Part shown: in pieces, positions 2,988 to 51,251 of the stretch | How the letters are laid out: every line of letters begins with the position of its first letter | Position numbering within the stretch: the stretch's first letter is position 1 | Notes under the pieces: generated by a model | The model's input: only the letters and a program-made list of their open reading frames with translations | Told to the model about the DNA's origin: nothing | The model's database searches: none | Assembly (NCBI RefSeq): GCF_900108515.1 | Contig: NZ_FNWW01000001.1 | Span: 310,001 to 374,000, forward strand | Length of the DNA: 64,000 bases | Origin: Halobacillus karajensis | Lineage (GTDB): Bacteria; Bacillota; Bacilli; Bacillales; Halobacillaceae | Direction of reading: 5' to 3' | Translations under genes and position numbers: made by a program

Positions 2988-2995
2988 AGGACCCG

Positions 2996-8980: not shown

Positions 8981-8990
8981 TGAACTACGG

Positions 8991-10670: not shown

Positions 10671-10705
10671 GAGACCACTCCTTTTCATTGAATTAACCAA
10701 TCTTT

Positions 10706-10719
10706 TGTAAGCGTTATCA
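10706..10719 (-). promoter_or_regulatory. CcpA catabolite-responsive element (cre), perfect consensus
   Basis: TGTAAGCGTTATCA matches all fixed positions of TGWAANCGNTNWCA. It lies in the 72-base gap between the SDR stop and the ligase start, so CcpA bound here would block read-through or an internal promoter and shut off ligase and importer when preferred sugars are present. Confidence 0.7.
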
Positions 10720-10742
10720 CAGATGATTAAAAAAACGGTAGA

Positions 10743-28061: not shown

Positions 28062-28982
28062 TTAGAACAAAATTTGAGCTAAATAGATCGTCAACGTAAC
28101 CGTTCCCATACTAAAAACTGTCGAAGCTAACACAATTTGAGCGGCAAGCTCCGGTTCGCTGCGATATTCTTGAGCGATGATTGCACTATTCACAGAACTT
28201 GGCATCCCTGAGGAAATCAACAGCGCCTGAGCTAGCACCCCCTCAAATCCTAGGGCCCAAATAAGCAATAACGCCAACATCGGTCCAAGCAACAATCGGA
28301 TAAATAGACTAATATAAACAACGATCAGTTTGAATTGAATGGTAAGCTGGGCCACTTGGGCCCCTAGAGTAATCAGAGCAATGCCGACCATGGCGTTTGC
28401 TACATACTCCCCAGGTTTCAAGATGAACTCAGGGACATCGACATTTCCTACGTTCAAAAGCACCCCGATCGTCATCGCATAGATAGCCGGCATCTTCAAT
28501 AAGCCAATCAGGGCCCTCCCTTTCCCTTCATCCACCGCTCGTAAGGAAAACACACCATATGTATAAGAAAATACATTCTGCAAGGTCATCACGATGACTT
28601 GGATAGTGGCCGCGAAGGGATCCTGTTTAAATGCCAAGTCGTTGACTGGAATTCCATAGTTTCCGGAGTTATAAAGCAGTACACTATTTGTAAATACTCC
28701 CCGGATGGCTTTGTTATACTTTCCAATCCATGCAACCATCTGTACGACAATATAGAGCACGAATATAAATAACGAGAAGAAAAGAAGAACCTTCCCCAGT
28801 AAGTCGAGAGAAAAAGAAGATTTATAGAGATTCACCAGCACAAACCCCGGGCTCAAAAAATAAATGTTGAGCTTGGCTAAAGTAAAGAGGTCCAGTTTGA
28901 ACGCTTTGTGCATGGCTGCTCCAATCCCTATTAAAATGAACACTGGAACGATAATATTGAGAAAAATAAATAGAATTTCCAT
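28062..28982 (-). CDS. AEC (auxin efflux carrier) family transporter
   Basis: About 306 residues, ten membrane segments in two inverted halves. The start MEILFIFLNIIVPVFILIGIGA and the C-terminal SSGMPSSVNSAIIAQEYRSEPELAAQIVLASTVFS are typical of AEC/MleP/MdcF-type carriers of malate, malonate or similar anions. I use the ATG at 28980-28982 after GGGGAGGAGG rather than the longer frame to 29045. No linked enzyme gives the substrate. Confidence 0.86.
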   Translation of the reverse strand: MEILFIFLNIIVPVFILIGIGAAMHKAFKLDLFTLAKLNIYFLSPGFVLVNLYKSSFSLDLLGKVLLFFSLFIFVLYIVVQMVAWIGKYNKAIRGVFTNSVLLYNSGNYGIPVNDLAFKQDPFAATIQVIVMTLQNVFSYTYGVFSLRAVDEGKGRALIGLLKMPAIYAMTIGVLLNVGNVDVPEFILKPGEYVANAMVGIALITLGAQVAQLTIQFKLIVVYISLFIRLLLGPMLALLLIWALGFEGVLAQALLISSGMPSSVNSAIIAQEYRSEPELAAQIVLASTVFSMGTVTLTIYLAQILF

Positions 28983-29041
28983 AGGATGCCTCCTCCCCTC
29001 TGTAACCATGTACTTCCTCACCCCGGGTCGATTCAATGTAA

Positions 29042-29075
29042 ACAAACATGGCCCTCATGAGGAGGACCATGTTTT
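29042..29075 (-). terminator. Hairpin between the YesL relic and the AEC gene
   Basis: AAACATGG / CCATGTTT arms with an inner CCTC/GAGG pairing; T-rich on both sides (TTTT on plus, TTTGTTT on minus). Probably the old terminator of the decayed gene. Confidence 0.55.
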
Positions 29076-30435: not shown

Positions 30436-30939
30436 TCAAATAGGATGAAAGTTGCCAGTAATAGAGTCGATCGTTAAAAGGTGATTCGAACGTTTGTCCC
30501 CATCATCAACTACATAAAAGGGACGATAAAAAAAGGTCTTTTTCTTTAATGCCAGGACAGGGACAGACATAGATTTCAGTTTTATAGAGGCGGAACGATA
30601 CATAAACTGTTTTGCTTCCTCTCCTGCATTTCCATAGGTCAACTCTTCCATAATTGTTTGGTCTGCTTCAATAGGGGTCTGATTAAATCCAGGTTCACAG
30701 TCAATAAGAGCGCCTCGTCCATTTACCCCATCAATCACACAACCAGAGGTTATCTTCTTTTTCATAAGCCCTTTGGTAAGAACGTTAAATTCAAAGTGGA
30801 AGTAAGGATAATAGATTTTATGGATGACTTTAAAGTCTATATTTTCTTCTATTTCCTTCAGGTGTAGTAAGACTTCCTTTTCATCATAGCTCTCCTTTTG
30901 CACTTTGGCCAGACGCATATCCCTAAACATCCCCTTCAT
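30436..30939 (-). CDS. Hypothetical protein linked to SSS symporter
   Basis: 167 residues at most, soluble, no signal peptide or membrane helix. It has a mixed alpha/beta pattern (ESYDEKEVLLHLKEIEENIDF, IHKIYYPYFHFEFNV, SGCVIDGVNGRGALID). I recognise no family. Three in-frame ATGs (30939, 30930, 30918) overlap or abut the symporter stop; the choice is uncertain. The 17-base overlap with the symporter gene suggests translational coupling, so it may have a role in regulating or using the transported solute. Confidence 0.7.
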   Translation of the reverse strand: MKGMFRDMRLAKVQKESYDEKEVLLHLKEIEENIDFKVIHKIYYPYFHFEFNVLTKGLMKKKITSGCVIDGVNGRGALIDCEPGFNQTPIEADQTIMEELTYGNAGEEAKQFMYRSASIKLKSMSVPVLALKKKTFFYRPFYVVDDGDKRSNHLLTIDSITGNFHPI

Positions 30940-32491
30940 TTATATACATTTTCTTTCTGACGAAGTCAGAAATAACTTTAGATTCAGACGCCATATCCTG
31001 GGATATTTTCTTTTCCAAGGGATTGGAGAGTTTCTTTCTCGTTTTAGCATTCTGTACAGCTTCTTGTATTTGTGGAGAAGGAGTTCTTCCAAAGTAATTT
31101 CCGATCCACATTCCGATGAACGAGATGATTAGACCTGCAAGAAACGGGTGTAAACCAGTAGGATTTTCCAACTCCAATGTGGTCCACAAAATATTGGTTG
31201 TCGCACCGCCGATCATGGCAAAAATCGCTCCCATGTTATTGGCTTTTGTTGAATAAACAGAGGCCACATACGGAACAAGGAAGCTATTCCCTAATACACC
31301 GAACGAAAAAATGACCAGTGTAAAAACAGAAGGAGGTTGATAGATGGCGACGATACATCCAATGACTCCGCCAGCAAAGACACAAATACGGGAAATCCAT
31401 ACCATCCGCCTTTCAGTAGCTCTTTTATCAATAAAACGCTGATAAATATCCCTCGATAAGATGGTCCCCGCTTGCATTAATAAAGAATCCGAGGTGGACA
31501 TAATAGCAGCCATAATGGCAGATAAAAGAATCGCTGCGAATATTCCCGGGAAAAATTGATAGGCGAGCTCTGGAATAATCATTTCCGGATCTGCAAGGTT
31601 TGGTAACAATACAATGCCTGCGAGACCAAGGAGGTAGGGAATAAAAATAAATAACTGATTCCATGTAGCGGCCCACATAATGGCACCTTTGACTGTTTTT
31701 GTACTTTTCATAGACATGTGTCTTACCACAATATGCGGAAGCCCCATATAACCAACGGAATAGATCAAGATCGCACCAATCACCACTCCCCATTGACCAT
31801 AATAAGCAAGGTCTTTGCCCCAAATGCTTAAGTAAGTCGGGTCAATCGAAGCTAATTGGGCGTTCACTTCACCTAGACTAATATGTGAAAAAGCCATAAT
31901 GGCAATCCCTGTAACTCCCAACACCATAATAATCCCTTGAATAAAATCCGTGTAAACGACCGCTAAATAGCCTCCTGCAACCGTGTATGTAATAATCACT
32001 CCTACTCCGACCAAGAGAGCTGCTTCATAGGGCCACCCTGTTAATGCTGTCAAAGCTTTTCCCGAAGCTATAAATTGAGCAAAGACATAAGCAAGGATAA
32101 AAATGATAGAAATCACAGATCCAATCACTCTTACCGCTGGACTTTCATATCGCTTCTCTAAATATTCTATGGGCGAGAGCGCACTTAAAGCTTCGGACAT
32201 ACGCCTCATCCTCTTTCCTAATACAGATAGATTGATAATCGCTCCACCTGCATCCCCAAGCGCATACCAAAGAGCATACCACCCTTGTTGGAAGGCAAGG
32301 GCGGGGCCTCCCATAAACATATATCCGCTCATCGAGCTGCTTTGCATCGTCATGGCTGTAACTGCCGGGCCGATACTTCTGTTGCCAAGTAAATAGTGTT
32401 CGGAGGACTTTGAAGCATTACGTGAAAACCATAGTCCGATTCCTAATAAAACCAGCAAATATACAAGGAAGATAACGCCATCTAATTTCAT
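30923..32491 (-). CDS. Sodium:solute symporter (SSS family)
   Basis: 522 residues, 13 membrane segments. Family marks are FLVYLLVLLGIGLWFSRNAS, the long first loop with GNRSIGPAVTAMTMQSSSMSGYMFMG, and the sodium-site helix AAILLSAIMAAIMSTSDSLLMQAG (about 300-325). PutP/PanF-like; the substrate could be an amino acid or a carboxylate. A 43-residue membrane protein gene lies 26 bases upstream, a pairing also seen for the other SSS gene in this window. A hypothetical gene overlaps its end. Confidence 0.9.
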   Translation of the reverse strand: MKLDGVIFLVYLLVLLGIGLWFSRNASKSSEHYLLGNRSIGPAVTAMTMQSSSMSGYMFMGGPALAFQQGWYALWYALGDAGGAIINLSVLGKRMRRMSEALSALSPIEYLEKRYESPAVRVIGSVISIIFILAYVFAQFIASGKALTALTGWPYEAALLVGVGVIITYTVAGGYLAVVYTDFIQGIIMVLGVTGIAIMAFSHISLGEVNAQLASIDPTYLSIWGKDLAYYGQWGVVIGAILIYSVGYMGLPHIVVRHMSMKSTKTVKGAIMWAATWNQLFIFIPYLLGLAGIVLLPNLADPEMIIPELAYQFFPGIFAAILLSAIMAAIMSTSDSLLMQAGTILSRDIYQRFIDKRATERRMVWISRICVFAGGVIGCIVAIYQPPSVFTLVIFSFGVLGNSFLVPYVASVYSTKANNMGAIFAMIGGATTNILWTTLELENPTGLHPFLAGLIISFIGMWIGNYFGRTPSPQIQEAVQNAKTRKKLSNPLEKKISQDMASESKVISDFVRKKMYINEGDV

Positions 32492-33015: not shown

Positions 33016-34488
33016 TTATTTTAAATCCAGTTTTATTTTTTCTATATGATTCCATGCGGATTTCACATTTTTCTCCATAGTTCTCCACACTTCTGTTCGC
33101 TCTTCAATCATATCTTTCACCACTTTAGAATTAGGCCCCCCCTGAATACTTCTTCTTTCAACAAACTGTTGAGGATCAACAATAGCTTTCCAATCCTCTT
33201 CCGAAATTTTAACGACCTCAAGCCACTCATTCACCTCATAAGGGGTTAACTCGTAAAGTTCTTTATTTAAACTTAAGCTTTTTTTGGCCACTAAGCTTGA
33301 CAAACGATGGGCTTCTCTAAAGGGGACCCCATAATCACGAGCAAGAACATCAGCTAATTCGGTAATAGTAATCATATTCATGGCGGCCTGGCTTCTGGCT
33401 TTGTCTTTATTGAAGGACATCGTGATAATGACCGCTCTCATCAGCTTTACAACTCGTAAAGATTTTCCAACCCCTTCATAAAGATGTGGTTGAAGATCAT
33501 CTTCTGTATCCACAATATCCCCATATGGGGTGTTATGAATCATCTGGACAATGGTTAACCCCTCCCCAACAGCACTACTGGCCAGGGCCCTTGAATGCTC
33601 TAAAGAAACCGGATTTCTTTTTTGAGGCATGATGCTGCTCGCTTGTACATAGGCATCTGAGACTTTTAATAATCCTACCTCTCGTGAAGCCATTCTAAGG
33701 AATTCCTGGATCCATCGACCCATATTTGTCATCAGGCTAACAATAGAAAGACCTGATTCTAACAAGTAATCCCCGGTAGCTATAGCATCATAGGAATTCT
33801 CCATTACTCCTTTAAACCCTAATAGTTCTGCTACACGATGACGATTAATGGGGAAAGCCGTCGTCGTAATGGCCGCAGCTCCCATAGGCGATCGGTTGAC
33901 CACATCATAGGCATTCCACAACCTTTGAACATCACGGTAGAGATTATCTGCTATAGCTAAGATATAGTGAGCAAATGTAGTTGGTTGGGCGGGTTGTGTA
34001 TGAGTGTGAGCAGGCATAACGTTGTTCACATGATCTTTCGCTTGCTCTATTAATGTTTGACCAAGCGCTCCTGTTTGGTCAATTAGTTCCAGCAAATGTT
34101 CCCGTAGAACCAGCCTGTACATCGCCTCTCCCATATCATTTCTACTTTTAGCCATGTGCATCTTCCCTGCCAAATCAGGTCCTATCAGCTCAGCAATTTT
34201 AGATTCAACTAAGAAAAATAAATCTTCGTAAACAGGATCATATTGTAGTTCCTCTTTCTTCATTTGGGATACTTTATTCACACCATTAAGGATTTTCTTT
34301 GCTTCGTCATCTTTAATCATTTTTTGTTCTTTAAGCATTGTTGTATGAGCACGGTGAATCATAATCATCGCATCGAAAAGGTATTCGCTTTGATCTTTGA
34401 AAACTGGTTTTAACAACTCATTGACATACGTTTTACCTGGAAATCCTGTTCCATCTTCCGCTTCAAAGTTCTCCTTAAATTCACTCAT
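33016..34488 (-). CDS. Argininosuccinate-lyase-like enzyme (fumarase/aspartase superfamily)
   Basis: 490 residues. The superfamily signature reads ASSIMPQKRNPVSLEH (about 290-305), with the catalytic serine loop; HTHTQPAQPTTFAH carries the conserved His-Thr-Gln segment and KSRNDMGEAMYR the first conserved region. Members cleave C-N bonds to release fumarate. No arginine genes are near; instead it follows an ABC importer and a ROK regulator, so a catabolic role on an N-substituted aspartate or related imported compound is more likely than arginine synthesis. EDDS lyase is a characterised precedent for such a role. The substrate is unknown. Confidence 0.82.
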   Translation of the reverse strand: MSEFKENFEAEDGTGFPGKTYVNELLKPVFKDQSEYLFDAMIMIHRAHTTMLKEQKMIKDDEAKKILNGVNKVSQMKKEELQYDPVYEDLFFLVESKIAELIGPDLAGKMHMAKSRNDMGEAMYRLVLREHLLELIDQTGALGQTLIEQAKDHVNNVMPAHTHTQPAQPTTFAHYILAIADNLYRDVQRLWNAYDVVNRSPMGAAAITTTAFPINRHRVAELLGFKGVMENSYDAIATGDYLLESGLSIVSLMTNMGRWIQEFLRMASREVGLLKVSDAYVQASSIMPQKRNPVSLEHSRALASSAVGEGLTIVQMIHNTPYGDIVDTEDDLQPHLYEGVGKSLRVVKLMRAVIITMSFNKDKARSQAAMNMITITELADVLARDYGVPFREAHRLSSLVAKKSLSLNKELYELTPYEVNEWLEVVKISEEDWKAIVDPQQFVERRSIQGGPNSKVVKDMIEERTEVWRTMEKNVKSAWNHIEKIKLDLK

Positions 34489-34503
34489 AGTTTCACCTCA
34501 TTG

Positions 34504-36189
34504 TTATAGAGTGTTTTCCGATTTCACTCCAAAAAACTTGTAGGAAATAATCATCACAATGGCAATTAACCCAACTTGGATCATTCCAAATGCTGCAGCT
34601 TGACCTAAATTGAATAGGCGCAGCTGGTTCATAATCTCTATAGAGATAGGGCGATTATCCAATGTATACAACAAAACGGATGTTGGAAATTCACCAACAG
34701 CCTGAACAAATGCAAGCAAGGTACCGCTTAATACCCCCGGCATAATCATAGGTAAGACTACCCTTCTAAATGTATAGAGCCATTTTGCACCAAGGCTTTG
34801 TGCTGCTTCCTCTATGGAATCATCCAACTGCTCTAAAACAGCAGAAGTGGAACGTACAACTAATGGAATAAAACGAACAAAATAGGCAAGAGGCAAAATC
34901 CAATAAGTACCTACTAAGACTTGGCCGAATGAAAATGGCGTTCCCTTATTAAAAGCTAGAATAAGATTCATCCCTACGACCGTCGCAGGCAATGCCCATG
35001 GAATCATGACAAGAATATCTAGTAAGTTTTTTCCTATAAACTTTCTCTTCACTAGTGCATAGGAGGTTATCATTCCAAATAGGAAACACCCTAAACAGGC
35101 GACAAAAGCCATAAATAAACTGTTCCTTACAGGATCCCATATAGTTGGATCCTCAAATAGAAGGCGATAATTCTCAAAGTTAAAAGCAGTCGGGTAGGTT
35201 TCCCATGTCCATGACCCTTCAGGTACAAAAGATAGAATAGCTAGAACAGCGTGAGGCAAAAGAAGAATGATCATAGCCATGACTCCCAAAGTCACCATCA
35301 ACCATTTGAGGAATGGGTTGCTTACTTCACTCCGATGGGCTCCAATCCCTTTGGTCCCCATCCTGTAATCCTTCCGATTCTGGAACCATCGCATAAATAA
35401 GAGAAAAGAGATAGAAATAATAGATAGAATCACAGATTGAGTGGCCGCCATTTCCAAGTTTCCATTTATTTTAGAAAAATAGATTTGCAAACTTAATACG
35501 CGGAATCCCCCAGCAAGCAAAAAAGGAGCACTAAAAGATGCCATTGATACCATGAATACAAGAAGAGAAGCCGCTACTAATGCAGGAGTCAGCAATGGAA
35601 ACGTCACCTTCCAGAAAACGCCAAACCGTCCAGAGCCTAAACTGGCCGCTGACTCTTCTAAGGACGGATCCACATTATTCAATGCTGATGAAACGGTCAT
35701 ATAAAAGTAGGGATACATCGTATAGGCATGCACAATCAATATTCCTGTTATCCCGCCGATGCTAAAAGGGACCTCTTCAAGGTTAAAAATATCCTTGATC
35801 ATATTTGGTATGAGTCCCACTTCACCGTAGAGCCACATGAAAGCCATGACCCCTACAAGGGATGGAAGAACGATTGGCATGATAGCAATCCCGGAAAAAA
35901 AGGAGCGTCCTGGAAAGTGGTATCTTGTAAAAATATAAGCTAATGGAACACCAATTAACGCGCTAAATAATACGGATAGTAAAGATATATACACAGAATT
36001 CCATAAAGCTTCCAAATTAGATTGTGCCTTAGGACCGAAAAAATCAATATAATTCTGGAGTGTAAGAGATCCACTTTTTTTAAAGCTTTCCAGTAGCGTT
36101 TCTAAGGAAGGATAAAGGACATAACCCACTAATATAAGTACGATAGGTATTAGTAATAACAGGGTTTTTCTTTTTTCAGCCTTAAGCAT
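34504..36189 (-). CDS. ABC transporter permease, fused two-domain (FbpB/ThiP-like)
   Basis: 561 residues made of two tandem binding-protein-dependent permease domains of six spans each. The EAA loops are EESAASLGSGRFGVFWKVTFPLL (first half, ~185-210) and EEAAQSLGAKWLYTFRRVVLPMI (second half, ~470-495). Such fused permeases serve iron(III), thiamine, phosphonate and polyamine-type importers. It lies between the ATPase and the lyase gene with 10-15 base gaps. Confidence 0.9.
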   Translation of the reverse strand: MLKAEKRKTLLLLIPIVLILVGYVLYPSLETLLESFKKSGSLTLQNYIDFFGPKAQSNLEALWNSVYISLLSVLFSALIGVPLAYIFTRYHFPGRSFFSGIAIMPIVLPSLVGVMAFMWLYGEVGLIPNMIKDIFNLEEVPFSIGGITGILIVHAYTMYPYFYMTVSSALNNVDPSLEESAASLGSGRFGVFWKVTFPLLTPALVAASLLVFMVSMASFSAPFLLAGGFRVLSLQIYFSKINGNLEMAATQSVILSIISISFLLFMRWFQNRKDYRMGTKGIGAHRSEVSNPFLKWLMVTLGVMAMIILLLPHAVLAILSFVPEGSWTWETYPTAFNFENYRLLFEDPTIWDPVRNSLFMAFVACLGCFLFGMITSYALVKRKFIGKNLLDILVMIPWALPATVVGMNLILAFNKGTPFSFGQVLVGTYWILPLAYFVRFIPLVVRSTSAVLEQLDDSIEEAAQSLGAKWLYTFRRVVLPMIMPGVLSGTLLAFVQAVGEFPTSVLLYTLDNRPISIEIMNQLRLFNLGQAAAFGMIQVGLIAIVMIISYKFFGVKSENTL

Positions 36190-36199
36190 ATAGGGTTAC

Positions 36200-37282
36200 T
36201 CACTCCTTCGCTGCCTTCGGTACTATACGTATCTGAGACGGTGGAAATTGAACATATACTTCATCATTTTCCTTTAAATAAGTACTCGGCCCCTTATTAA
36301 GGTCTGTGACTTTTATAAACATGTTCCGATCATGGAGAGCAATGAAACTATGCACCGCTTCCCCTGTAAATTGAACCAAATGGACCTTTCCTACATAAAC
36401 GTTTGGTCCAGACAATTCTGACCCTGAAACTTCGATCGCTTCTGGCCGTATAGACATTTTCAACGGAGCATCCTCTACTTCTGACCCTGAAGGGGTAACG
36501 ACTATGCTGCTATTTAAATCCTCACTATAAAATGCTTCTTTTTCTTTCCTCCATCTCACGTCTAATAGATTGGTTTCACCTATAAATTCTGCTACAAAAT
36601 CATTGACAGGATGATTGTATATCTCAGTCGGCGTACCTATTTGCTGGCAGTTACCAACATTAAATACAGCTATCCGATCACTCATTGTAAGCGCTTCTAC
36701 TTGGTCGTGGGTCACATAGATTGTAGTGATTCCATATTCACGCTGCAATCGTAATATTTCATTTCTCATCTCATCCCTTAAACGTGCATCCAAATTACTT
36801 AACGGCTCATCTAAAAGCAAAATGTCAGGTTCAATCACTAATGCTCTCGCCAGAGCGACACGTTGTTGCTGTCCACCGCTCAACTGACTGACTTGACGAT
36901 CTATGAATGGCTTCAATCTCACTTTTTCTAAAACATCTTCGACTCGCTTTTTAATTTCAACTTTTTTCTTTTTCCTTACTTTTAAACCGAAGGCTACATT
37001 TTCGAAAACAGTCATATGAGGAAAGAGGGCATAGTTTTGAAAAACCATGCCCGTATTTCTATTCTCTGGTGATACTGTTGTCATATCCTTCTCGTTAAAT
37101 TTAACTTTACCTTCTGTAGGATAATAGAATCCGGCTATCATTCTAAGGGTGGTAGTTTTCCCACACCCGCTGGGTCCCAAAAAGGTAAAGAATTCGCCTT
37201 CTTTTATGACTAAATCTAAATTTTCCACAGCTGTGAAGTCTCCAAATCGCTTTGTTATATTTGAAAGAGTAACAGACGACAT
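36200..37282 (-). CDS. ABC transporter ATP-binding protein (PotA/FbpC-like)
   Basis: About 360 residues. Walker A GPSGCGKTT (~36-44), signature LSGGQQQR (~134-141), Walker B ILLLDEP (~154-160) and the H-loop TIYVTHDQ are canonical; the C-terminal ~90 residues form the TOBE domain of the spermidine/iron/maltose group. I start at the ATG 37280-37282 after GAGGGG; a GTG two codons upstream is also possible. Confidence 0.92.
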   Translation of the reverse strand: MSSVTLSNITKRFGDFTAVENLDLVIKEGEFFTFLGPSGCGKTTTLRMIAGFYYPTEGKVKFNEKDMTTVSPENRNTGMVFQNYALFPHMTVFENVAFGLKVRKKKKVEIKKRVEDVLEKVRLKPFIDRQVSQLSGGQQQRVALARALVIEPDILLLDEPLSNLDARLRDEMRNEILRLQREYGITTIYVTHDQVEALTMSDRIAVFNVGNCQQIGTPTEIYNHPVNDFVAEFIGETNLLDVRWRKEKEAFYSEDLNSSIVVTPSGSEVEDAPLKMSIRPEAIEVSGSELSGPNVYVGKVHLVQFTGEAVHSFIALHDRNMFIKVTDLNKGPSTYLKENDEVYVQFPPSQIRIVPKAAKE

Positions 37283-37306
37283 GCTCACAACCCCTCTACC
37301 GATGTT

Positions 37307-38407
37307 TTAGTTCCCCGTTTCTTTGGCACTGTTTTTTATGTTATTGTCCCAATACTCCATCCACTCATCTGATTTTTCCTGAAATACATCCCAATCAATA
37401 TCCATCGCATTAATCTCCGTTTCTTGAATCCACTCTGGAAGGTCTTCAACATCATCTCTTGTCGGGATGCGGTAATATTTATCGGCTAATAACTTTGCGG
37501 CTTCTTGTGTATTTACAAATTCATAGAATGCTTTAGCAGCTTCAGGGTGAGGAGCCCCTTCAATCATAGCGATCCCTTCCGTAAGTACAGGGGTCCCACT
37601 TTCAGGAATAACGTAACTGAAAGGGTAATCCTTTTCTTCAGCAAGCATCACTGTATCCGGCATATTCCAAACAGAGATATTCCCTACACCTTTAGCTACT
37701 TGGTTATACATGATCTCCGGGTTTGCCGAGTATTCTTTTGTATTTTCGTCTAGTTTTTGCAGCCATTCGTAACCCGCTTCCGTGCTTTCCGTTTCTTTAT
37801 AATCGCGATAAATCATAGCTGAGTAAATAGTACGCATCGTACCAGAAGCCAGAGGATAACGAATGATCAACTCATCTTCCCATTTTGGATCAATTAACTC
37901 ATCCCAGTCTTTAGGTGCTTCTTCTTCAGATATTTCTTTGTTATTGTATAGGATGACCTCAGGCGTTTGTGAGGTTCCCGTCCAATACCACTCCTCATCG
38001 TGGTACATGTCATCCAACGCGTCAGCATAACTTGGTTCATAGGGTTGTAAGAGTCCTTCATTTTTCGCTTCATCGAACATCACTTGTGGAGCTCCCCACC
38101 AAATATCGGCTTGAGTATTATTTTCTTCCGAACGTACCCGATCCAATATCTCTTGGGAACCCATATCAAGAAACTCCATATCTACGTCATACTCTGATTC
38201 AAATTGCTGTTCAAATTCACTCAATATGTCCTTACCATGAGGAGAGTAAACAACTACTTTATCTTCTAAATCTCCATTTTCACTATTAGATCCAGAGTTT
38301 GACTCCTCATTCGTACTGGTAGATTCTTCGTTTCCAGCCATACAACCAGTAAGGATAAAACCGAAGACAATTGCCCAAACCATCACCCAACGAGTTTTCT
38401 TTTTCAT
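37307..38407 (-). CDS. ABC transporter substrate-binding lipoprotein (family 1, Fe/AEP/polyamine-type)
   Basis: About 366 residues. Signal with lipobox FGFILTGC, acidic linker, then the periplasmic-binding fold type II of the FbpA/PhnS group (KVVVYSPHGKDILSEFEQQFESEYDVDMEF; DRVRSEENNTQADIWWG; GVGNISVWNMPDTVMLAEEKDYPFSYVIPESGTP). The DIWWGAP segment resembles PhnS-like and putrescine-like binding proteins more than ferric-ion ones. Start at the ATG 38405-38407 after AAGGGGG. First structural gene after the ROK regulator. Confidence 0.88.
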   Translation of the reverse strand: MKKKTRWVMVWAIVFGFILTGCMAGNEESTSTNEESNSGSNSENGDLEDKVVVYSPHGKDILSEFEQQFESEYDVDMEFLDMGSQEILDRVRSEENNTQADIWWGAPQVMFDEAKNEGLLQPYEPSYADALDDMYHDEEWYWTGTSQTPEVILYNNKEISEEEAPKDWDELIDPKWEDELIIRYPLASGTMRTIYSAMIYRDYKETESTEAGYEWLQKLDENTKEYSANPEIMYNQVAKGVGNISVWNMPDTVMLAEEKDYPFSYVIPESGTPVLTEGIAMIEGAPHPEAAKAFYEFVNTQEAAKLLADKYYRIPTRDDVEDLPEWIQETEINAMDIDWDVFQEKSDEWMEYWDNNIKNSAKETGN

Positions 38408-38421
38408 TAGATAGGCCCCCT

Positions 38422-39585
38422 TCATATTTGAATCACAGACTCATTCTCTTTCAAAAATAAAGCGACTGCACCGACAACACCAGCTTCTCTTCCAAATGTG
38501 GATGGGACTACTTGACAACTCTTTGGTGTAAATTCATCAATAATCTTAGATATCGTTTGTTCATATTCTTCAAATGATCCGCTCACACCACCTCCTATAA
38601 TGACTAATTCTGGATCGAACAGTGATATATAATTGGCAATACCAAACCCTAAATGTTCTATGGCTGAATCTACGATTTCGATCGCATCTTTATCGCCTTG
38701 TCTCCTTAGTTCGAACGCCTCTTTTGCGGTCACATGTTCACTCTTCAGACTAGAGAGTCGCTTCCCTATAGAAGTACCGCTTGCTATACTTTCCAGGAAG
38801 CCATAACCTTCAATGGTCGGCTGGTAATCTTTCGCCTTTCGGGCATCTGTCACAAGATATCCCATTTCCCCTGCGCTGTAACTACTCCCCCTGAAGAGTT
38901 TTCCATTTAGAATCATTCCACTGCCAATTCCTGTTCCAACAGCTATATAAATGATATTTTCCAATGATTTTCCTGCTCCTAACCATTGCTCGCCTAATAC
39001 ACTTGTGTTTACATCGTTCTCGACAAATACAGGAAAGGAGAAGTTTTGACTTACCCGCTCTCTTATAGGGAAATTTCTCCATTTCATACTAGGAGCATCA
39101 ACCACTATTCCTTCCTTTACATTTGTCACTCCGGGTACCCCTATCCCCATTCCCATAATGTCATGGTCAGTTAAATGGAGTTCTTCAACCATTCTATTAA
39201 CATCCTCATATAAACGCTCTAGTATATCCTTTTCTAAATAATCCTTTGTAGCAAACTCTCGGTATGCATAAATGTGACCATTTAAACAGGTGATTCCCGA
39301 AGATACTTTTGTTCCTCCTATATCCACACCAATGACGTAGAAAGATTTAGGGTTGAATACCAGTTGGACAGGTTTTCTTCCTCCCGAAATAGTAGATTCA
39401 CCTGTTCCTGTTTCAAGAACCCACCCTTCCTGTATCAAATTTTCTACCAACAAGGATACTGAGGGTTTACTCATATGTATTCTTTTTGATATTTCAGAAC
39501 GCGATATTGGTTCATGATCACGAATACATTTCAACACTAATTTCTTGTTCATGTTTTTGATATATGCTGAATTCCCCTTCTGCAT
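38422..39585 (-). CDS. ROK-family transcriptional repressor (NagC/XylR-like)
   Basis: 387 residues. N-terminal winged HTH (ISRSEISKRIHMSKPSVSLLVENLIQEGW), then the ROK sugar-kinase fold: VIGVDIGGTKVSSG (~94-107, phosphate loop), GTGIGSGMILNG and a truncated zinc-motif region (GEMGYLVTD, no CxCGxxGC), as in several ROK repressors. It is the first gene of the leftward ABC/lyase operon. Its XylR-like TTAGTTAG...CTAACTAA operator occurs in its own promoter and in front of the divergent PIG-L gene, so it very likely controls both. The effector is presumably a sugar or sugar-derived molecule. Confidence 0.88.
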   Translation of the reverse strand: MQKGNSAYIKNMNKKLVLKCIRDHEPISRSEISKRIHMSKPSVSLLVENLIQEGWVLETGTGESTISGGRKPVQLVFNPKSFYVIGVDIGGTKVSSGITCLNGHIYAYREFATKDYLEKDILERLYEDVNRMVEELHLTDHDIMGMGIGVPGVTNVKEGIVVDAPSMKWRNFPIRERVSQNFSFPVFVENDVNTSVLGEQWLGAGKSLENIIYIAVGTGIGSGMILNGKLFRGSSYSAGEMGYLVTDARKAKDYQPTIEGYGFLESIASGTSIGKRLSSLKSEHVTAKEAFELRRQGDKDAIEIVDSAIEHLGFGIANYISLFDPELVIIGGGVSGSFEEYEQTISKIIDEFTPKSCQVVPSTFGREAGVVGAVALFLKENESVIQI

Positions 39586-39617
39586 AGCCCGTTCCCCTTT
39601 TTCACGGTGGTGTTAGT

Positions 39618-39640
39618 TAGTTAGAACAACTTACTAACTA
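39618..39640 (-). promoter_or_regulatory. ROK operator copy 1 (TAGTTAG-N9-CTAACTA)
   Basis: Inverted repeat with a nine-base spacer, just downstream of the -10 hexamer of the ROK gene. The same arms and spacer recur at 39864-39888. The layout resembles XylR-type ROK operators. Confidence 0.75.
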
Positions 39641-39650
39641 TTTAACCTTA

Positions 39651-39679
39651 TTTATAAGGGCACCTTTCCTAATTGTAAA
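39651..39679 (-). promoter_or_regulatory. SigA promoter of the ROK-ABC-lyase operon
   Basis: TTTACA (39674-39679), 17-base spacer, TATAAA (39651-39656) on the minus strand; the operator at 39618-39640 follows within ten bases. A further inverted repeat TACATGG-N7-CCATGTA (39686-39706) lies just upstream and may bind another factor. Confidence 0.68.
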
Positions 39680-39823
39680 ATTCTGTACATGGGTGTATTC
39701 CATGTATATGGCGATTATACTTCCGATACCTTTTATTTCCTTTCATTTGTGTTAATTTTAGAATTTTTAGTATATTTTGTTAAATTGATTCTTAAGACAT
39801 ATGTAAAACAGGTCTAAGGGGGG

Positions 39824-39853
39824 TTACAATATTTGGGTCAATTGAATTATAAT
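39824..39853 (+). promoter_or_regulatory. SigA promoter of the PIG-L gene
   Basis: TTACAA (39824-39829), 18-base spacer, TATAAT (39848-39853); the ROK operator begins 11 bases after the -10. Confidence 0.65.
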
Positions 39854-39863
39854 GACAAAAAAG

Positions 39864-39888
39864 TTAGTTAGAAAGATTAACTAACTAA
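39864..39888 (+). promoter_or_regulatory. ROK operator copy 2 (TTAGTTAG-N9-CTAACTAA)
   Basis: A perfect eight-base inverted repeat with the same nine-base spacer as copy 1, placed over the expected transcription start of the PIG-L gene. Confidence 0.78.
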
Positions 39889-39909
39889 TCTGCTATAAGG
39901 AGGAATTTT

Positions 39910-42441
39910 TTGAAGAATCTTGTTTATGTATGGCTGGCGTTTCTGTTAATGATTTCAGGATTTGCTTCAACTCCCGCGATTAGTTTTGCCGAAGATGAAC
40001 CCCCCTCTTCAGATTTAGAATTATGGGAAGCGGTGGCTCCTTTAACGACAACCGCAAGTTTTATGAATACCGGAGCACATCCTGATGATGAAAGAAGCCA
40101 ATTTCTCGCTTACTTATCTCGTGGAAAAGGGATCGAAACCTCTTTCCTCTTATCTACAAGAGGCCAAGGCGGTCAGAATGAAATAGGAAGTGAGCTTGGT
40201 GATAGTCTTGGTATTATTCGAACCAACGAATTACAAGCATCCTCCGATGTCTTAGGCATAGACATCTTTTTCCTAAATCAGGCATTCGAGGACGACATCA
40301 AAGATTTCGGATTCTCCAAATCACCAGAGGAAACTCTTGATAAGTGGGGAGAGTCAGCAACATATGAACGCTTGATTTACCACATCCGAAAGTTTAAACC
40401 CGATGTTCTAATGCCTTCCTTCCGCAACGTAGACACGCAGCATGGTCACCACCGTGCCATGACACTACTTACTGAAAAAGCTTTTGACGATGCCGCAGAC
40501 CCCTCTGTATTCCCTGAACAACTCCAAGATGGTCTAACAACTTGGCAGTCTAAAAAGCTTTACCTTCCTGCAGAAACCGAAGAAGAAACTACCCTATCCA
40601 TCGAAATTGGACAATATGATGAACACTATGATATGACTTACCCTCAACTCGGGGAGAAGGCTCGTTACTTACATGAGTCTCAAGGAATGGGACGTGATCT
40701 CGGAGAAGGTTCTGTCTCAGTCGATCTTCAACTGGTTAGATCAACAGTAGGAGATATTCCAGAAAAAGAGGATCATTTGTATGAAGGAATCCCTTATGAC
40801 TTTTCAGAGTATTCAAGCATACTTAAAAAAGAAGGAAATCAGTACAAGAAGAACCTGAATCAATTCCAACATCAGTTAGAAAAAGTTAAAGAAGCTTATC
40901 CCAATCATAATGACGTACGAAATCAGGCAGAAAAAGCTTATCAACACTTACAAACACTTCAATCAAAATTAGAAAAAGACCATAAACTTCCTGAACAATT
41001 ACTTCATACACTTAAACACAAACTTAAAATCAAGGAAGAACAATTAACCCATACCCTTTTTACCGCTGGCCAACTTGATATAGAAGTAGAGGTAGAGGAC
41101 CCTCATCTCACTTACAAGGACACTACAGACATAAGCGTTACCATCAAAAATAACGGTCTAAAGAAAGTGCAAGGATTGACTGCCGCTCTCTCCACTCCCG
41201 AGGATTGGGAAGTAAGGGGTCATCATAAAAAGACAACCTTACAGCCTGGCCAAACAAAAACTTATGACTATCAACTAAAAGCAAACTCTAGAAACTATTA
41301 TGATGCTTATGACCCTAGCCGCATTACTGCAGAAGTAAGCTTTAAAACGAAAGGACATACCATTACTGACGAATACACACCCGAGGAAAGACTGGCCTTA
41401 TTACCTGAAGTCTCTTTAAAAACAAATCCAGAGAACATAGTGATCAATACAAAAGATATGGAAGATACTCTTCCGTTAGAAGTGACGGTGGAAAAATTTG
41501 CAGAAGAAGAATTAACGACGGAAATTTCTTTGGATTTGCCTGAAAATTGGCAGTCAAAACCAGCTTCACAGTCGATTCATTTTGAAGCTGATGAAAAAGA
41601 AAAGACGATGACTTTTGATCTCCTCCCTCCAGAAGATGTGGACGAAGGAGAGTTTAAAGTAACACCTGAAGCTCAGGTGAACGATATCCAGCTTACTCAT
41701 AATGTTCAAACCATTGATTACAACCATATTGGAACCAATTACTATCTTTCAAATGCCGATATGGAAGGCGTCGCTTTCCCGCTTCAATACCCAGAGGACC
41801 TTAAAGTAGGTTATGTAGAGAGTAGTTTTGATGAAGTCGCCGACCAGTTAATAAATGTTGGGATGGATATTACTAAACTAAGTGAACAAGACTTATCAAC
41901 CGCGGATCTTTCTCAATATGATACCATCGTTACAGGGATCCGGGCCTATCTATCCAGAGAAGATCTCCTTTTACAAAATGAACGTTTACTTGAATATGTG
42001 AATAACGGGGGTCACCTAGTCGTTCAGTATAATAAGCCTTGGGATAATTGGGATGCAGAAACGACTGCTCCTTACCCTTTAGTCATTGGACAGCCATCCA
42101 TTAAATGGCGAGTCACTCGCGAAGATGCGCCTGTGGAAGTACTAAAACCAGAGTCCCCATTATTTAATTTCCCTAATGTCATTCAACAGTCTGACTGGGA
42201 TGGATGGGTACAAGAAAGAGGACTTTACTTCCCGATGGATTGGAGCAGTGAATTTGAAACATTCGTAAGTGTAGCAGATCCAGGAGAAGAGCCATTCGAA
42301 GGTGGCATTCTTAAGGCCGATTACGGAAAAGGAACCTATATCTATTCCAACCTTGTTTGGTACCGACAAATCCAAAACCAGGTTCCTGGTGGATACCGAA
42401 TCTTTACAAACCTAATCAGTTATCCTTATCACAATGAATAA
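39910..42441 (+). CDS. Large secreted PIG-L family deacetylase
   Basis: 843 residues, exported: signal peptide with cleavage near AISFA-ED (residue ~27). The PIG-L (LmbE) zinc hydrolase domain fills ~45-290, with AHPDD at 56-60 and the HGHHR zinc/base motif at 178-182. A Gln/Lys-rich helical linker (~300-375), two beta-sandwich/NEW3-like domains (~380-600) and a C-terminal class I amidotransferase-like domain (YVESSFDEVADQLINVGMDITKL, GIRAYLSREDLLLQNERLLEYVNNGGHLVVQYN) follow. PIG-L enzymes deacetylate N-acetylglucosaminyl groups. It starts at TTG after AAGGAGG. The shared ROK operator ties it to the importer and lyase. Confidence 0.85.
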   Translation: MKNLVYVWLAFLLMISGFASTPAISFAEDEPPSSDLELWEAVAPLTTTASFMNTGAHPDDERSQFLAYLSRGKGIETSFLLSTRGQGGQNEIGSELGDSLGIIRTNELQASSDVLGIDIFFLNQAFEDDIKDFGFSKSPEETLDKWGESATYERLIYHIRKFKPDVLMPSFRNVDTQHGHHRAMTLLTEKAFDDAADPSVFPEQLQDGLTTWQSKKLYLPAETEEETTLSIEIGQYDEHYDMTYPQLGEKARYLHESQGMGRDLGEGSVSVDLQLVRSTVGDIPEKEDHLYEGIPYDFSEYSSILKKEGNQYKKNLNQFQHQLEKVKEAYPNHNDVRNQAEKAYQHLQTLQSKLEKDHKLPEQLLHTLKHKLKIKEEQLTHTLFTAGQLDIEVEVEDPHLTYKDTTDISVTIKNNGLKKVQGLTAALSTPEDWEVRGHHKKTTLQPGQTKTYDYQLKANSRNYYDAYDPSRITAEVSFKTKGHTITDEYTPEERLALLPEVSLKTNPENIVINTKDMEDTLPLEVTVEKFAEEELTTEISLDLPENWQSKPASQSIHFEADEKEKTMTFDLLPPEDVDEGEFKVTPEAQVNDIQLTHNVQTIDYNHIGTNYYLSNADMEGVAFPLQYPEDLKVGYVESSFDEVADQLINVGMDITKLSEQDLSTADLSQYDTIVTGIRAYLSREDLLLQNERLLEYVNNGGHLVVQYNKPWDNWDAETTAPYPLVIGQPSIKWRVTREDAPVEVLKPESPLFNFPNVIQQSDWDGWVQERGLYFPMDWSSEFETFVSVADPGEEPFEGGILKADYGKGTYIYSNLVWYRQIQNQVPGGYRIFTNLISYPYHNE

Positions 42442-43039: not shown

Positions 43040-44590
43040 ATGATTTGGTATGTAGCTGTATTTATTTTTTATATTATTTTTCTCATATGGGCCAATATTA
43101 AAAGCCTTCAAACGGCAGAATCCATTGATGATTATACAACGGGTGGACATAGAATGGGATTACTCATGGGGATAGGGACAACGGCAGCCACATGGGTTAG
43201 TGTGGCATCCGTCATTGGAGTCCCTGGCTACCTGTACAGTTCAGGAGTAGCCGCTGTGATTGGCTGGGTAGCCGGATGGTGTTTTGGAGGAGCTTTAATC
43301 CCCATTGTGGCTTACAAAATTAGACGTCCAGAAAAACCAGCCAGGACTTTTCCGGAATTTATCCGTCTTCGGTTCGAACCTTTCCAGAAAAAGAGCACCT
43401 TGCAAGCGATTGTTGGTATCTTAATGTTTATTGGTTATTTGCTGTTAGTCAATATCCAGGTGACCGGCTTTGGGATTGTATTTTCCAGCATCACGGGTAT
43501 GGATTATAAACTGGCCATCTTTGGCTTCTTATTATTTATTTTAATCACGAGTGTAGGTGGATTCTGGTCTGTGGCTGCTACCGATACATTAAACACTGTA
43601 TTGATTACTGTCGGAGTACTGCTCGCGAGCGGTGTCGTTTGGTCATTAACAGGAGGACTCGGTAATATACTAGATACCCTTGCGACGACTACTGCGCCAA
43701 CAAATGTCGGCGGTCCGGCTCTTGATGAGGGAGTGCTGCTCTCTCCACTCGGGACATTCGGATTGGGCACATTGTTTTCCATCTTTATCTCAAACTCACT
43801 CGGGACCCCCTCTTCTCCACATTGGGTTACGCGGATGCTGGCTCCTCAAAATGTGAAAGTGGCGATATTACAAGTCATGGGGACCATCGTTGTTCTCCTT
43901 TTCATCATGGGTCCTTTAATCATTATCGGGTTAGGCGCAAAAGTTCTTTTGCCTAGTATACCTGAAGGGAAAACAACGGATTACATTATTCCATTAATTA
44001 TTCAGGACTATACACCACCAATTGTCGGGGGCATAACTCTGGTAGCTATTTGTGCAGCCGCCATATCTACTGCGAATTCCATGCTTCTGCACTGTGCCAC
44101 TTCCCTCTATTATGACGTGTATTTAAATATATCGTCAAAAAGGATCAGTGACAGAAAGTTTAAGAATTGGCTGCGATTGAGTATATTTGCCATTGCTACC
44201 GTAGCGGTGGTATTAGCTATTAATCCTCCCTGGTTTTTAGCCATGGGATTTGTCTACGTGTATGGAGGGTTCGGGGCTGCCTTCTTCCTCGTTGTTTTCC
44301 TAGGTCTTTATTGGAAACGAATGAACAGGGCTGGAGCCTATGCAGGAATTATCATCGGCTCCGTCGTTTATGTGGTGGCGAAGGCTATGGGGTATGACAC
44401 TCCATTTGTAATAGCTGTGGCCACATCACTCATAGGGGTATTACTTGCGGTTTACTTCACTAAAAGATCCCCTCTTGAAGCCTATGAGCCCTATTTTGAG
44501 GCAGAAGTCAGCCATTCTACCAAACAGGTGGCGGAAACAATTAGAAACAACTCTCATGAAGAAAAAGCGGATCGTTCTGAAGTAGGTTAA
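43040..44590 (+). CDS. Sodium:solute symporter under SAM-riboswitch control
   Basis: 516 residues, 13 spans. The SSS family pattern is clear: SIDDYTTGGHRMGLLMGIGTTAATWVSVASVIGVPGYLYSSG near the start and the sodium-site helix GGITLVAICAAAISTANSMLLHCATSLYYDVYL (~330-360). Expression under SAM limitation predicts import of methionine, a methionine precursor or another sulfur compound. The common S-box transporters I know are of other families (MetNPQ, MetT, MetP), so the assignment here is inferred from regulation alone. Confidence 0.9.
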   Translation: MIWYVAVFIFYIIFLIWANIKSLQTAESIDDYTTGGHRMGLLMGIGTTAATWVSVASVIGVPGYLYSSGVAAVIGWVAGWCFGGALIPIVAYKIRRPEKPARTFPEFIRLRFEPFQKKSTLQAIVGILMFIGYLLLVNIQVTGFGIVFSSITGMDYKLAIFGFLLFILITSVGGFWSVAATDTLNTVLITVGVLLASGVVWSLTGGLGNILDTLATTTAPTNVGGPALDEGVLLSPLGTFGLGTLFSIFISNSLGTPSSPHWVTRMLAPQNVKVAILQVMGTIVVLLFIMGPLIIIGLGAKVLLPSIPEGKTTDYIIPLIIQDYTPPIVGGITLVAICAAAISTANSMLLHCATSLYYDVYLNISSKRISDRKFKNWLRLSIFAIATVAVVLAINPPWFLAMGFVYVYGGFGAAFFLVVFLGLYWKRMNRAGAYAGIIIGSVVYVVAKAMGYDTPFVIAVATSLIGVLLAVYFTKRSPLEAYEPYFEAEVSHSTKQVAETIRNNSHEEKADRSEVG

Positions 44591-45387: not shown

Positions 45388-46698
45388 TTACATAAAGCTA
45401 AATAATACCACAGCCAATATTACACCAAGAAGTGGCACGACGACAGTTAATGCCCCAAATGCGGGGTAGGCATCTTTATGGGTTTCCCCAGCAATGGCTC
45501 GAATCGTCGTGACAACATAACCACCATGTGGCAAGGAGTCAAGCGCCCCCGAGGAAATAGCAGCAACCCTATGGAGTTGCTCAGGGTTCACACCTATATC
45601 TAAGTAGTGGGGGGAGAGCAGTGGCAATGCTATAGCCTGACCTCCTGAAGCCGAACCGGTCATACCTGCGATGACACAAATAGCAATAGCGCTGCCTATT
45701 AACGGACTTCCAGGTATATTCGTCATGGCTTCTACCGTTTGATTAAAAGCAGGCGTTGCCTTAGCCACACCTCCAAAACCGACCACTGCGGAAGTATTCG
45801 CTATAGCAATTAAGGCCCCCATCGTCCCCTCTGAAACCGCTTTCCAAATATCTTTAAAGTATTTAAAGCTGATGATAATAGTAGCCGTACATCCTCCTAG
45901 TAATGCTACGATCAGTGCTGATTTGCCTAATGAGTCATGGAAGATAAACGAAAAAGCCAATACGACAAACAAAGGGATGATACTCAAAAGGGGGTTGGGG
46001 AGTTTCTCTCTCCCAAGCTCAGGATCATCAGCCCGGACATCGAACGTTTCCCCCTTATTAACTGCCTTTTTGATCATCCTGGTTAACCACCAATAGCCTA
46101 TAATTATCATAAATACTGCAACGACTAAACTAACTTCCCATGCCGCATAAGGGGAAGTACCTAAGAATTCGATAGGAATCCAGTTTTGAATTTCCGGTGA
46201 ACCTGCGGAAGTCATAGTAAAAGTTGTTGAACCAAAAGCAAGTGCAGCTGGAATAAACCTTCTTGGCAGATCAGCTTCTTTAAATAAACTCAGTGCCATT
46301 GGATAAACTGAAAAGGCGACTACAAATAAACTAACTCCACCATAGGTTAAAACAGCACAAGCAGCAACTATAGCCAAAGCAGCTTGTTTTACACCAATTT
46401 TATCAATAATCCACTTCGACACACTGTCTGCTGCCCCGCTATCCTCCATGAGTTTTCCAAATATCGCTCCCAAGAGGAACATTAGATACCATGAAGCTAC
46501 AAATCCAGCGAAACCATCCATATAATTCGTTAAAAAATTAGCTTCACCTTTTCCCGCCATCTGAGGGAAAATGGGCAAGCCGCTGAAGATAGCCACAATG
46601 AAAGCTGAAAATGGTGCCGCAATGAGTAAGTTCATTCCTTTCATTGTTAATGCAATGAGAAGTAGTAGTCCCCCAATGAGTCCGATCATACTTAACAT
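45388..46698 (-). CDS. GntP-family permease (gluconate/hydroxy-acid type)
   Basis: 436 residues, about 12-13 membrane segments. It has the GntP/CitMHS-like features FLLGAIFGKLMEDSGAADSVSKWII, GSASGGQAIALPLLSP and a C-terminal SGALDSLPHGGYVVTTIRAI. Family members import gluconate, 3-hydroxybutyrate or other small hydroxy acids with protons. It is transcribed in the same direction as the LacI regulator and HisD-like gene, and its gap of 130 bases from the regulator suggests its own promoter or read-through. Confidence 0.88.
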   Translation of the reverse strand: MLSMIGLIGGLLLLIALTMKGMNLLIAAPFSAFIVAIFSGLPIFPQMAGKGEANFLTNYMDGFAGFVASWYLMFLLGAIFGKLMEDSGAADSVSKWIIDKIGVKQAALAIVAACAVLTYGGVSLFVVAFSVYPMALSLFKEADLPRRFIPAALAFGSTTFTMTSAGSPEIQNWIPIEFLGTSPYAAWEVSLVVAVFMIIIGYWWLTRMIKKAVNKGETFDVRADDPELGREKLPNPLLSIIPLFVVLAFSFIFHDSLGKSALIVALLGGCTATIIISFKYFKDIWKAVSEGTMGALIAIANTSAVVGFGGVAKATPAFNQTVEAMTNIPGSPLIGSAIAICVIAGMTGSASGGQAIALPLLSPHYLDIGVNPEQLHRVAAISSGALDSLPHGGYVVTTIRAIAGETHKDAYPAFGALTVVVPLLGVILAVVLFSFM

Positions 46699-46828
46699 AT
46701 GTTGTCCTCCTCTTTTCAGGGTCTATTTAATACCCTTAGTTAAGCCCAGTAAAAAGCTTTTCTCTTATCGAGATTTGAAAAGGCTTACAATAAAAGAGGC
46801 AAGATTTCCATTGTTTATTTAATGATAT

Positions 46829-47842: not shown

Positions 47843-47922
47843 TACTTAAAACCTCCTGCCTTTCTAGACAGAAAATAATAGCAATCATCTAGCACCTTTT
47901 CAATCATAAATCGTGATCATTC

Positions 47923-49197: not shown

Positions 49198-49216
49198 TTC
49201 GATTCACTCCTATCTT

Positions 49217-49230
49217 TGAATACGTATGCA
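49217..49230 (-). promoter_or_regulatory. LacI-type operator, copy 1
   Basis: TGAATACGTATGCA: exact ATACGTAT palindrome with TG...CA ends, typical of LacI-family sites. It lies 20 bases upstream of the HisD-like start and recurs identically at 50979-50992. Confidence 0.7.
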
Positions 49231-49244
49231 AATTAATTTAAAAA

Positions 49245-50006: not shown

Positions 50007-50030
50007 TTGAAACCAGCTCTCCTTTCATGG

Positions 50031-50966: not shown

Positions 50967-50978
50967 TTCCACCCTCCT

Positions 50979-50992
50979 TGAATACGTATGCA
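50979..50992 (-). promoter_or_regulatory. LacI-type operator, copy 2
   Basis: Identical to 49217-49230 (TGAATACGTATGCA) and immediately upstream of the ribosome site of the hydroxyacyl dehydrogenase gene. A cre-like TGTAAACGCTTTAT lies at 51022-51035 (two mismatches). Confidence 0.72.
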
Positions 50993-51251
50993 AAAACTAT
51001 GGTAAACGATGGGTTATTTTTTGTAAACGCTTTATTTCATAATTTTTTAAAATTTAAGTAAATAGAAACATACTTTTAGATATAAATGGTGTTTTTCTAC
51101 TTCCCTTTCCTTTAAATGGTATGTTCCCCCAACTTACTAGTTGTTAAGATCGAATCTTCCATTTAAAATTGTCGATTAGCATATTGCTTCTTTGGCGACA
51201 ATGTGAAAAGATATAAGTGTTTAATTATGCAACGATTGAGGTGGGGATAAA

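Follow-up and report, generated by a model that had tools for sequence, protein, structure and literature searches.

A conserved ROK-linked regulon of Halobacillus karajensis and its relatives, with a predicted secreted PIG-L protein and an argininosuccinate-lyase-like enzyme, may scavenge a glucosamine conjugate

Bacillithiol is a conjugate of cysteine, glucosamine and malate (Cys-GlcN-malate); according to PMC4360819, BshA produces N-acetylglucosaminyl-malate (GlcNAc-malate), BshB deacetylates it, and Bca cleaves bacillithiol S-conjugates. The PIG-L/LmbE enzymes covered by a 2014 review act on N-acyl-glucosamine cores, and glucosaminyl-malate (GlcN-malate) is presumed there to be recycled after Bca (PMC4101496). 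In Staphylococcus aureus, glutathione, a thiol of low molecular weight, is taken up by GisABCD-Ggt, which pairs an ABC importer with an enzyme that cleaves an amide bond (PMC10355420). Here we describe a six-gene system at positions 33016 to 42441 of a 64,000-nucleotide stretch of the Halobacillus karajensis genome (the whole stretch is referred to as the window). It comprises an operon for a ROK-family regulator, a substrate-binding protein (SBP), an ATPase, a permease and a lyase of the argininosuccinate lyase (ASL) superfamily, and a divergent gene for a predicted secreted PIG-L protein. The six genes form a conserved regulon. Its component parts come from known superfamilies and the pathway appears to be undescribed: we found no account in the open-access literature of this gene combination, of the breakdown, recycling or uptake of bacillithiol, or of a link between bacillithiol and argininosuccinate lyases, in line with the earlier note on this DNA, which knew of no such pathway. 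Our preferred reading, which we hold at slightly less than an even chance, is that the regulon serves specifically to scavenge a conjugate of glucosamine; the likeliest candidates are GlcN-malate, the core of bacillithiol, and GlcNAc-malate. We infer the substrates, above all the malate half, and the repression.

Domains were called with Pfam, and subfamilies with NCBIfam-type models and their curated cut-offs. The genes proposed in the earlier note are present at its coordinates with the domains it named, and the features of the locus are as follows.

33016..34488, minus strand: ASL-superfamily lyase, 490 aa (Pfam Lyase_1 and ASL_C2), in a group apart from ArgH with its own pocket residues; its model is nearest to EDDS lyase and ASL
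34504..36189, minus strand: fused two-domain ABC permease, 561 aa (BPD_transp_1 in two stretches), PhnU2-like, under the curated cut-off
36200..37288, minus strand: ABC importer ATPase with TOBE_2, 362 aa, exceeding the TIGR01187 potA subfamily cut-off
37307..38425, minus strand: substrate-binding protein, 372 aa (SBP_bac_6/8), lipobox by eye
38422..39585, minus strand: ROK-family regulator with winged helix-turn-helix (HTH), 387 aa (ROK and MarR/HTH_24), NagC/Mlc-like, under the cut-offs
39616..39638, no strand: operator 1, 5' of the ROK operon, an inverted repeat kept in relatives
39863..39885, no strand: operator 2, 5' of the PIG-L gene, an inverted repeat kept in relatives
39910..42441, plus strand: predicted secreted PIG-L protein, 843 aa (PIG-L and NPCBM_assoc, the NEW3 domain); the C-terminal part is poorly modelled

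The operon is tightly spaced by coordinates, with a 4-bp overlap between the ROK and SBP genes followed by gaps of 18, 10 and 15 bp, and the PIG-L gene is oriented divergently from it.

Both promoter regions carry a 23-bp inverted repeat with 7-bp arms around a 9-base spacer: operator 1 is GTTAGTTAGAACAACTTACTAAC, with one arm mismatch, and operator 2 is GTTAGTTAGAAAGATTAACTAAC. These repeats had been noticed earlier at 39618-39640 and 39864-39888; they are real and lie 1-2 bp from those positions. A scan of the window with the operator consensus gave nine matches, counting both strands and overlapping registers, against 0.35 expected; eight fall on the two operators and the remaining one lies elsewhere with three mismatches. 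Searches elsewhere used the pattern GTTAGTWAN7TWACTAAC with at most one mismatch, and a start region was taken to reach from 450 bp before the start of a gene to 200 bp into it. Across the whole 4.07-Mb genome the pattern occurs at these two sites only, and a reversed-pattern control gave 0. In the 59 lyase-anchored loci described below (1.22 Mb) all 68 sites lie in ROK or PIG-L start regions (control 0), and the operator is present at 30 of the 48 ROK genes and 31 of the 44 PIG-L genes. Among 25 PIG-L-anchored loci, 37 of 38 sites lie in such regions (control 0). In three other genomes the operator also led to system loci that lie apart: L205 (ROK, Amidohydro_2, lyase and CUT1), L206 (ROK, SBP, ATPase, permease and lyase) and L207 (ROK and CUT1). 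System genes were looked for near the operator sites L208 and L209 and none were found. A promoter scan around both operators gave one site against 2.2 by chance and thus lends no support to the two elements overlapping.

A lyase scan of GTDB genomes yielded the 59 lyase-anchored loci; the full neighbourhood tally holds 112 loci with some genomes counted twice, and the lyase-anchored and PIG-L-anchored sets overlap in some genomes. All six genes occur together in 33 of the 59 lyase loci, so the clustering proposed for this set extends to related genomes. The closest lyases, at 85%, are those of Halobacillus aidingensis and a Halobacillus sp., and most others are from Virgibacillus, Oceanobacillus, Pseudalkalibacillus, Sporosarcina, Bhargavaea and similar genera (Halobacillus belongs to Bacillaceae and Sporosarcina to Caryophanaceae). 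A CUT1-type importer set is found in 12 of the 59 loci, ten of them with PIG-L; L035 counts among both the 12 and the 33. Partial versions include L045 (ROK, importer and lyase, no PIG-L), L065 (importer, lyase and PIG-L, no ROK), L064, which retains a ROK fragment only, and L026, truncated by a contig end. The lyase is carried by 3 of 22 genomes in the window's genus and 7 of 44 in its family, which indicates that the system is patchy. It is sparse further out: 10 of 398 genomes sampled from the phylum have it, as do 19 of the 148 in the family to which genome G109 belongs, 2 of 38 in one further order and 1 of 22 in another. A PIG-L-anchored search matched 31 of 299 genomes of the order; in 25 of the 30 loci besides the window's own, the lyase lies within 8.5 kb of PIG-L in 21. 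For two of the four loci with no lyase nearby (genomes G523 and G489), the operator led to the remaining system genes at another place in the genome. L145 has ROK and importer genes and no lyase within the fetched stretch.

The lyase was compared with ArgH by genome census, phylogeny and pocket residues. The window's genome carries a separate argG-argH pair, which upholds the genomic half of the proposal that the lyase is not the cell's ArgH, and the lyase is 31% identical to that ArgH. In a census of 42 chosen lyase-bearing genomes (30 of the 59 named loci, the window's genome and 11 others), 38 have a separate canonical-type ArgH. The other four (G318, G910, G916 and G917) have this lyase as their sole ASL-like match, and argG is absent from all four; it is present in all eight others tested. 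A tree of 42 rows in chosen subsets (28 system lyases and 14 ArgH) separated the two groups with 100/100 support; SYS_L142 forms a long branch in it and five rows are of unlike composition. The fumarate-side residues S115, R116, N117, D118, T162, H163, S284, S285, K290 and N292 are identical in 28/28 system and 14/14 ArgH rows. The leaving-group pocket differs from that of ArgH, in which a Tyr, a Gln and a Lys bind arginine: Tyr is replaced by D324 in 28/28 system rows, Gln by E329 in 26/28 (the other two have Ala and Gly) and Lys by L332 in 19/28 (M, T or I in the other nine). In addition, an ArgH Asp corresponds to V294 (27/28), a Lys to H318 (28/28) and an Asn, itself kept in 13/14 ArgH rows, to I325 (25/28). 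Common to the lyase and ArgH are thus the fold, the three signature motifs and the ten residues examined on the fumarate side; the lyase differs in its own tree group, its low identity, its replaced leaving-group pocket and its occurrence in genomes lacking argG. Judged by sequence, the lyase is separate from ArgH, with a predicted non-arginine role. The kept fumarate-side residues together with the replaced pocket suggest that the fumarate half of the substrate is retained and that the leaving group is different.

The structure model of the lyase (pLDDT 86) has as its nearest folds ASL and the ethylenediamine disuccinate (EDDS) lyase of Chelativorans (6G3D-6G3I, 6RX8). EDDS lyase, a C-N lyase of the same superfamily, is the closest by fold (TM 0.82) and among the closest by sequence. 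The two are 29% identical, however, and alignments with the native and D290M/Y320M EDDS lyase sequences place V294 and D324 of the system lyase at D290 and Y320; Q159 corresponds to His. R112, N113, Q159, N288, D290 and Y320 are the six EDDS lyase residues lying within 4-6 angstroms of the substrate that were picked for mutagenesis in PMC12363623.

The PIG-L gene starts with TTG and its product begins with what reads by eye as a signal peptide, in agreement with the export claimed for it earlier. The LmbE/PIG-L metal motif, HxDD with a later His, is present as H57-D59-D60 and H181, invariant in 25 rows, as are the HPDD and QHGHH motifs as a whole. The top Foldseek matches are LnmX, MshB and a diacetylchitobiose deacetylase. 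BshB models gave no match to this protein at E<=0.001, and Mca matched only at 1.9e-8, under its cut-off. With MshB, BshB and Bca/Mca it shares the metal motif, the PIG-L domain and the fold; in contrast to them it is predicted to be secreted, is ~840 aa long and carries NEW3 and a further C-terminal part. These features are those of a putative secreted deacylase-type protein, and the acyl group removed may be acetyl or cysteinyl.

The importer resembles Phn/Pot-type ABC importers (PhnSTUV2, PotABCD) in having SBP_bac_6, a fused permease and a PotA-like ATPase, whereas its proteins fall under the PhnS2, PhnT2 and PhnU2 equivalog cut-offs. The solved sequences nearest to the SBP are the pyridoxal-phosphate-binding P5PA and Fe3+-type SBPs, and alternative versions of the system have a CUT1-type sugar importer instead. 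The likeness to staphylococcal GisABCD-Ggt is one of outline: there the peptidase is cytoplasmic, the substrate is glutathione and the abstract mentions no lyase (PMC10355420). The regulator combines HTH and ROK domains, and the promoter region of its own gene holds a palindromic operator-like site; this is the make-up of ROK repressors of the NagC and Mlc type, and the protein is predicted to act like them. The ROK domain of that type features a Cys-rich zinc motif, and the translation of our regulator has no Cys in the corresponding stretch.

Distant versions of the system carry amino-sugar enzymes. L137, from the same phylum, combines ROK, SBP, ATPase, permease and lyase with a PfkB kinase and NagB, and L141 has NagB, Amidohydro_2, ROK, lyase and CUT1. 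A BadF-type (NagK-like) kinase is found in 9 of the 112 loci (L138, L140, L184 and L176-L181); the three that were scanned (L138, L140 and L178) have N-acetylglucosamine kinase as best NCBIfam match, under the cut-off, and the best solved match of the L178 kinase is an N-acetylmuramic acid/N-acetylglucosamine kinase (E 4.4e-39). A second, short PIG-L of ~240-250 aa, with no room for a signal peptide, occurs in 7 of 19 loci from the family of G109 (L176-L181 and L183). At the level of whole genomes, nagB was detected in 42/42 lyase-bearing genomes at E<=1e-40 (32 above the curated cut-off) compared with 6/14 controls. A GH4 glycosidase is within reach in L029, L030, L039 and L044 (by similarity; L044 was scanned). 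The amino-sugar kinases, NagB and the BshB2-like deacetylase in distant versions make a glucosamine derivative the most likely conjugate, over an aspartate conjugate or a chelator, and the leaving group of the lyase is probably glucosamine. The earlier note had proposed catabolism of an N-acylated amino-sugar or aspartate conjugate, naming chelators too among the ligands to try; its ROK-linked unit, secreted deacylase-type protein, importer and fumarate-type lyase distinct from ArgH are supported, and its choice of compounds is narrowed to a most likely glucosamine derivative.

Accessory hydrolases vary among these loci. A creatininase-family amidohydrolase lies next to the lyase in 8 of the 112 loci (e.g., L178:10738-11580 and L135:8022-9131), and in L134 an SDH_alpha-family protein (7801-9033) sits between Amidohydro_2 and the lyase. 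The latter may resemble cysteine desulfidase, which would fit the release of cysteine from bacillithiol. Amidohydro_2 is found in 15 of the 112 loci and PIG-L in 77, with both in none (Fisher p 2e-9, a value to be read with the relatedness of the loci and the double counting of some genomes in mind). A plain mutual replacement of the two is not upheld, since genome G523 carries both, in two operator-linked loci (L124 and L205).

Gene linkage, the operator, the separate lyase group with its pocket and the co-localised amino-sugar enzymes of distant versions are directly established. For the reading built on them, GlcN-malate is the simplest compound we can name that would need an N-deacylase, glucosamine salvage and a fumarate-forming lyase. 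In favour of the link to bacillithiol are the short PIG-L proteins with their BshB2-like representative, the N-acyl-glucosamine cores on which the reviewed PIG-L enzymes act (PMC4101496), the CUT1-type sugar importers of alternative versions and the occurrence of BshC in 37 of the 42 lyase-bearing genomes. The dicarboxylate half would be malate if O-linked or aspartate if N-linked. By chemical analogy, L-malate joined through its 2-OH to glucosamine would be the oxygen analogue of argininosuccinate, with the same C4-dicarboxylate and the same leaving-group position at C2. Outside the cell, the secreted PIG-L protein would strip an N-acyl group (cysteinyl, S-conjugated cysteinyl or acetyl), and the Pot/Phn-like or CUT1 importer would then take in GlcN-malate, an aminosugar-dicarboxylate. 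Inside, the ArgH-like lyase would perform its usual elimination on the C4-dicarboxylate with the sugar leaving, giving fumarate and glucosamine. Glucosamine could be phosphorylated by a kinase and deaminated by NagB to enter glycolysis, with fumarate entering the tricarboxylic acid cycle, and the ROK protein would bind both operators and repress both promoters until an inducer arrives. The stronger form of this proposal, a bacillithiol/glucosaminyl-malate catabolic pathway in which a glucosaminyl-malate lyase (cleaving C-O instead of C-N) works with a bacillithiol amidase secreted by the cell, an importer of its own and a switch of the ROK type, is possible and we advance it more tentatively.

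A number of observations weigh against our preferred reading. No gene in the system marks the malate half, and the literature consulted documents no ASL relative that eliminates a sugar by breaking a C-O bond. BshB requires Arg109, directly before its HxxH motif (PMC4101496), and the secreted PIG-L protein has at this position an invariant Gln177 (25 rows, matched by motif). The short PIG-L of L178 has BshB2 (TIGR04000) as its best NCBIfam match at 112.8 bits, under the cut-off of 195.25. BshC is present in 37 of the 42 lyase-bearing genomes and absent from five, all of which are among the seven outside the window's class, and bacillithiol production is therefore not decisive as a predictor of the system. 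The Amidohydro_2 and creatininase-like proteins have no explained role. The operator is less exclusive in other genomes: across 20 whole genomes the pattern gives 38 sites and the reversed control 18, and the control equals or exceeds the pattern in five of them; there are 0-3 sites per genome, and 36 of the 38 are at system genes by position. Eleven of the 59 lyase loci have no nearby ROK, Pot-type permease or CUT1 permease. These include five from Sporosarcina (L036, L041, L053, L057 and L073, at about 258-11410), in which the lyase follows ilv-leu genes and a class V aminotransferase and the transporter set is lacking (ilvB and ilvC of L036 and leuABCD of L041 come from scans, the ilv-leu genes of the others from similarity; the aminotransferase of L041 has BhcA as best NCBIfam match). 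These copies may represent a different use of the lyase. Finally, the lyase exceeds the TIGR00838 argH cut-off (350.9 vs 279.5 bits).

That score is the case for regarding the lyase as a second argininosuccinate lyase with coincidental neighbours, an explanation that we reject as hardly credible given the separate argG-argH of the window's genome, the absence of argG from four lyase-bearing genomes, the replacement of the ArgH pocket Tyr and Lys in every system row and of Gln by Glu, Ala or Gly, and the conserved clustering with the other system genes. Catabolism of a metal-chelating aminopolycarboxylate of the EDDS or aspergillomarasmine type through an Fe3+-type importer would agree with the closeness of EDDS lyase and with the Fe3+-type relatives of the SBP. 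It would give PIG-L, NagB and the amino-sugar kinases no purpose, many loci have CUT1 importers in place of the Pot-type importer, and D290 and Y320 of EDDS lyase are not kept; we regard it as improbable.

The alternatives closest to ours keep the amino sugar. If the glucosamine nitrogen carried a succinyl (aspartate) group, as in a Heyns-type fructose-aspartate product, C-N cleavage would give fumarate and glucosamine after PIG-L had deacylated a larger precursor. The same amino-sugar enzymes fit such an N-linked conjugate, and the structurally closest enzymes, ArgH and EDDS lyase, are documented to cleave C-N bonds; the PIG-L deacylase is not obviously needed, however, and the BshB2-like enzyme in seven loci is left unexplained, and we consider this quite unlikely. 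The substrate could also be another N-acylated amino-sugar metabolite, with the lyase acting on a different C4-dicarboxylate-like part or a later intermediate. The transporter type (Pot/Phn-like or CUT1) and the accessory hydrolases (Amidohydro_2, creatininase-like and GH4) vary, which suggests that the exact substrate may vary, whereas the pocket of the lyase hardly changes from version to version and so favours a single substrate core. We see this explanation as unlikely, if a little less so than the N-linked conjugate.

If scavenging of the GlcN-malate core is correct, bacteria can use as food the core of bacillithiol, their counterpart to glutathione, and a group of lyases that score as argininosuccinate lyase is misnamed. 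Bacillithiol derivatives are reportedly, going by the title of one paper (PMC6282198), the most widespread bacterial thiols. The distribution of such a pathway would be patchy, with occurrences among relatives of Halobacillus, in a second family belonging to its class and in Bacillota further away. Should the malate half prove mistaken, there would still be dozens of genomes with a distinct and strictly regulated catabolic regulon whose lyase is misannotated.

Several neighbouring genes lie outside the system. The SSF transporters at 30923-32491 and 43040-44590 flank the locus and were left out of the system because a single 24% match was all that turned up on either side of it in the two closest Halobacillus relatives. 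A Mem_trans-type transporter is encoded on the minus strand at 28062-29045, with an acetyl-CoA hydrolase/transferase nearby at 25318-26826. On the other side, positions 45388-52997 hold a second catabolic-looking island with a GntP/CitMHS permease, a LacI regulator, a HisD-like dehydrogenase, a 253-aa open reading frame, a 3-hydroxyacyl-CoA-type dehydrogenase and a divergent PrpR_N sigma-54 activator, a composition that may point to sulfonate or hydroxyacid catabolism.

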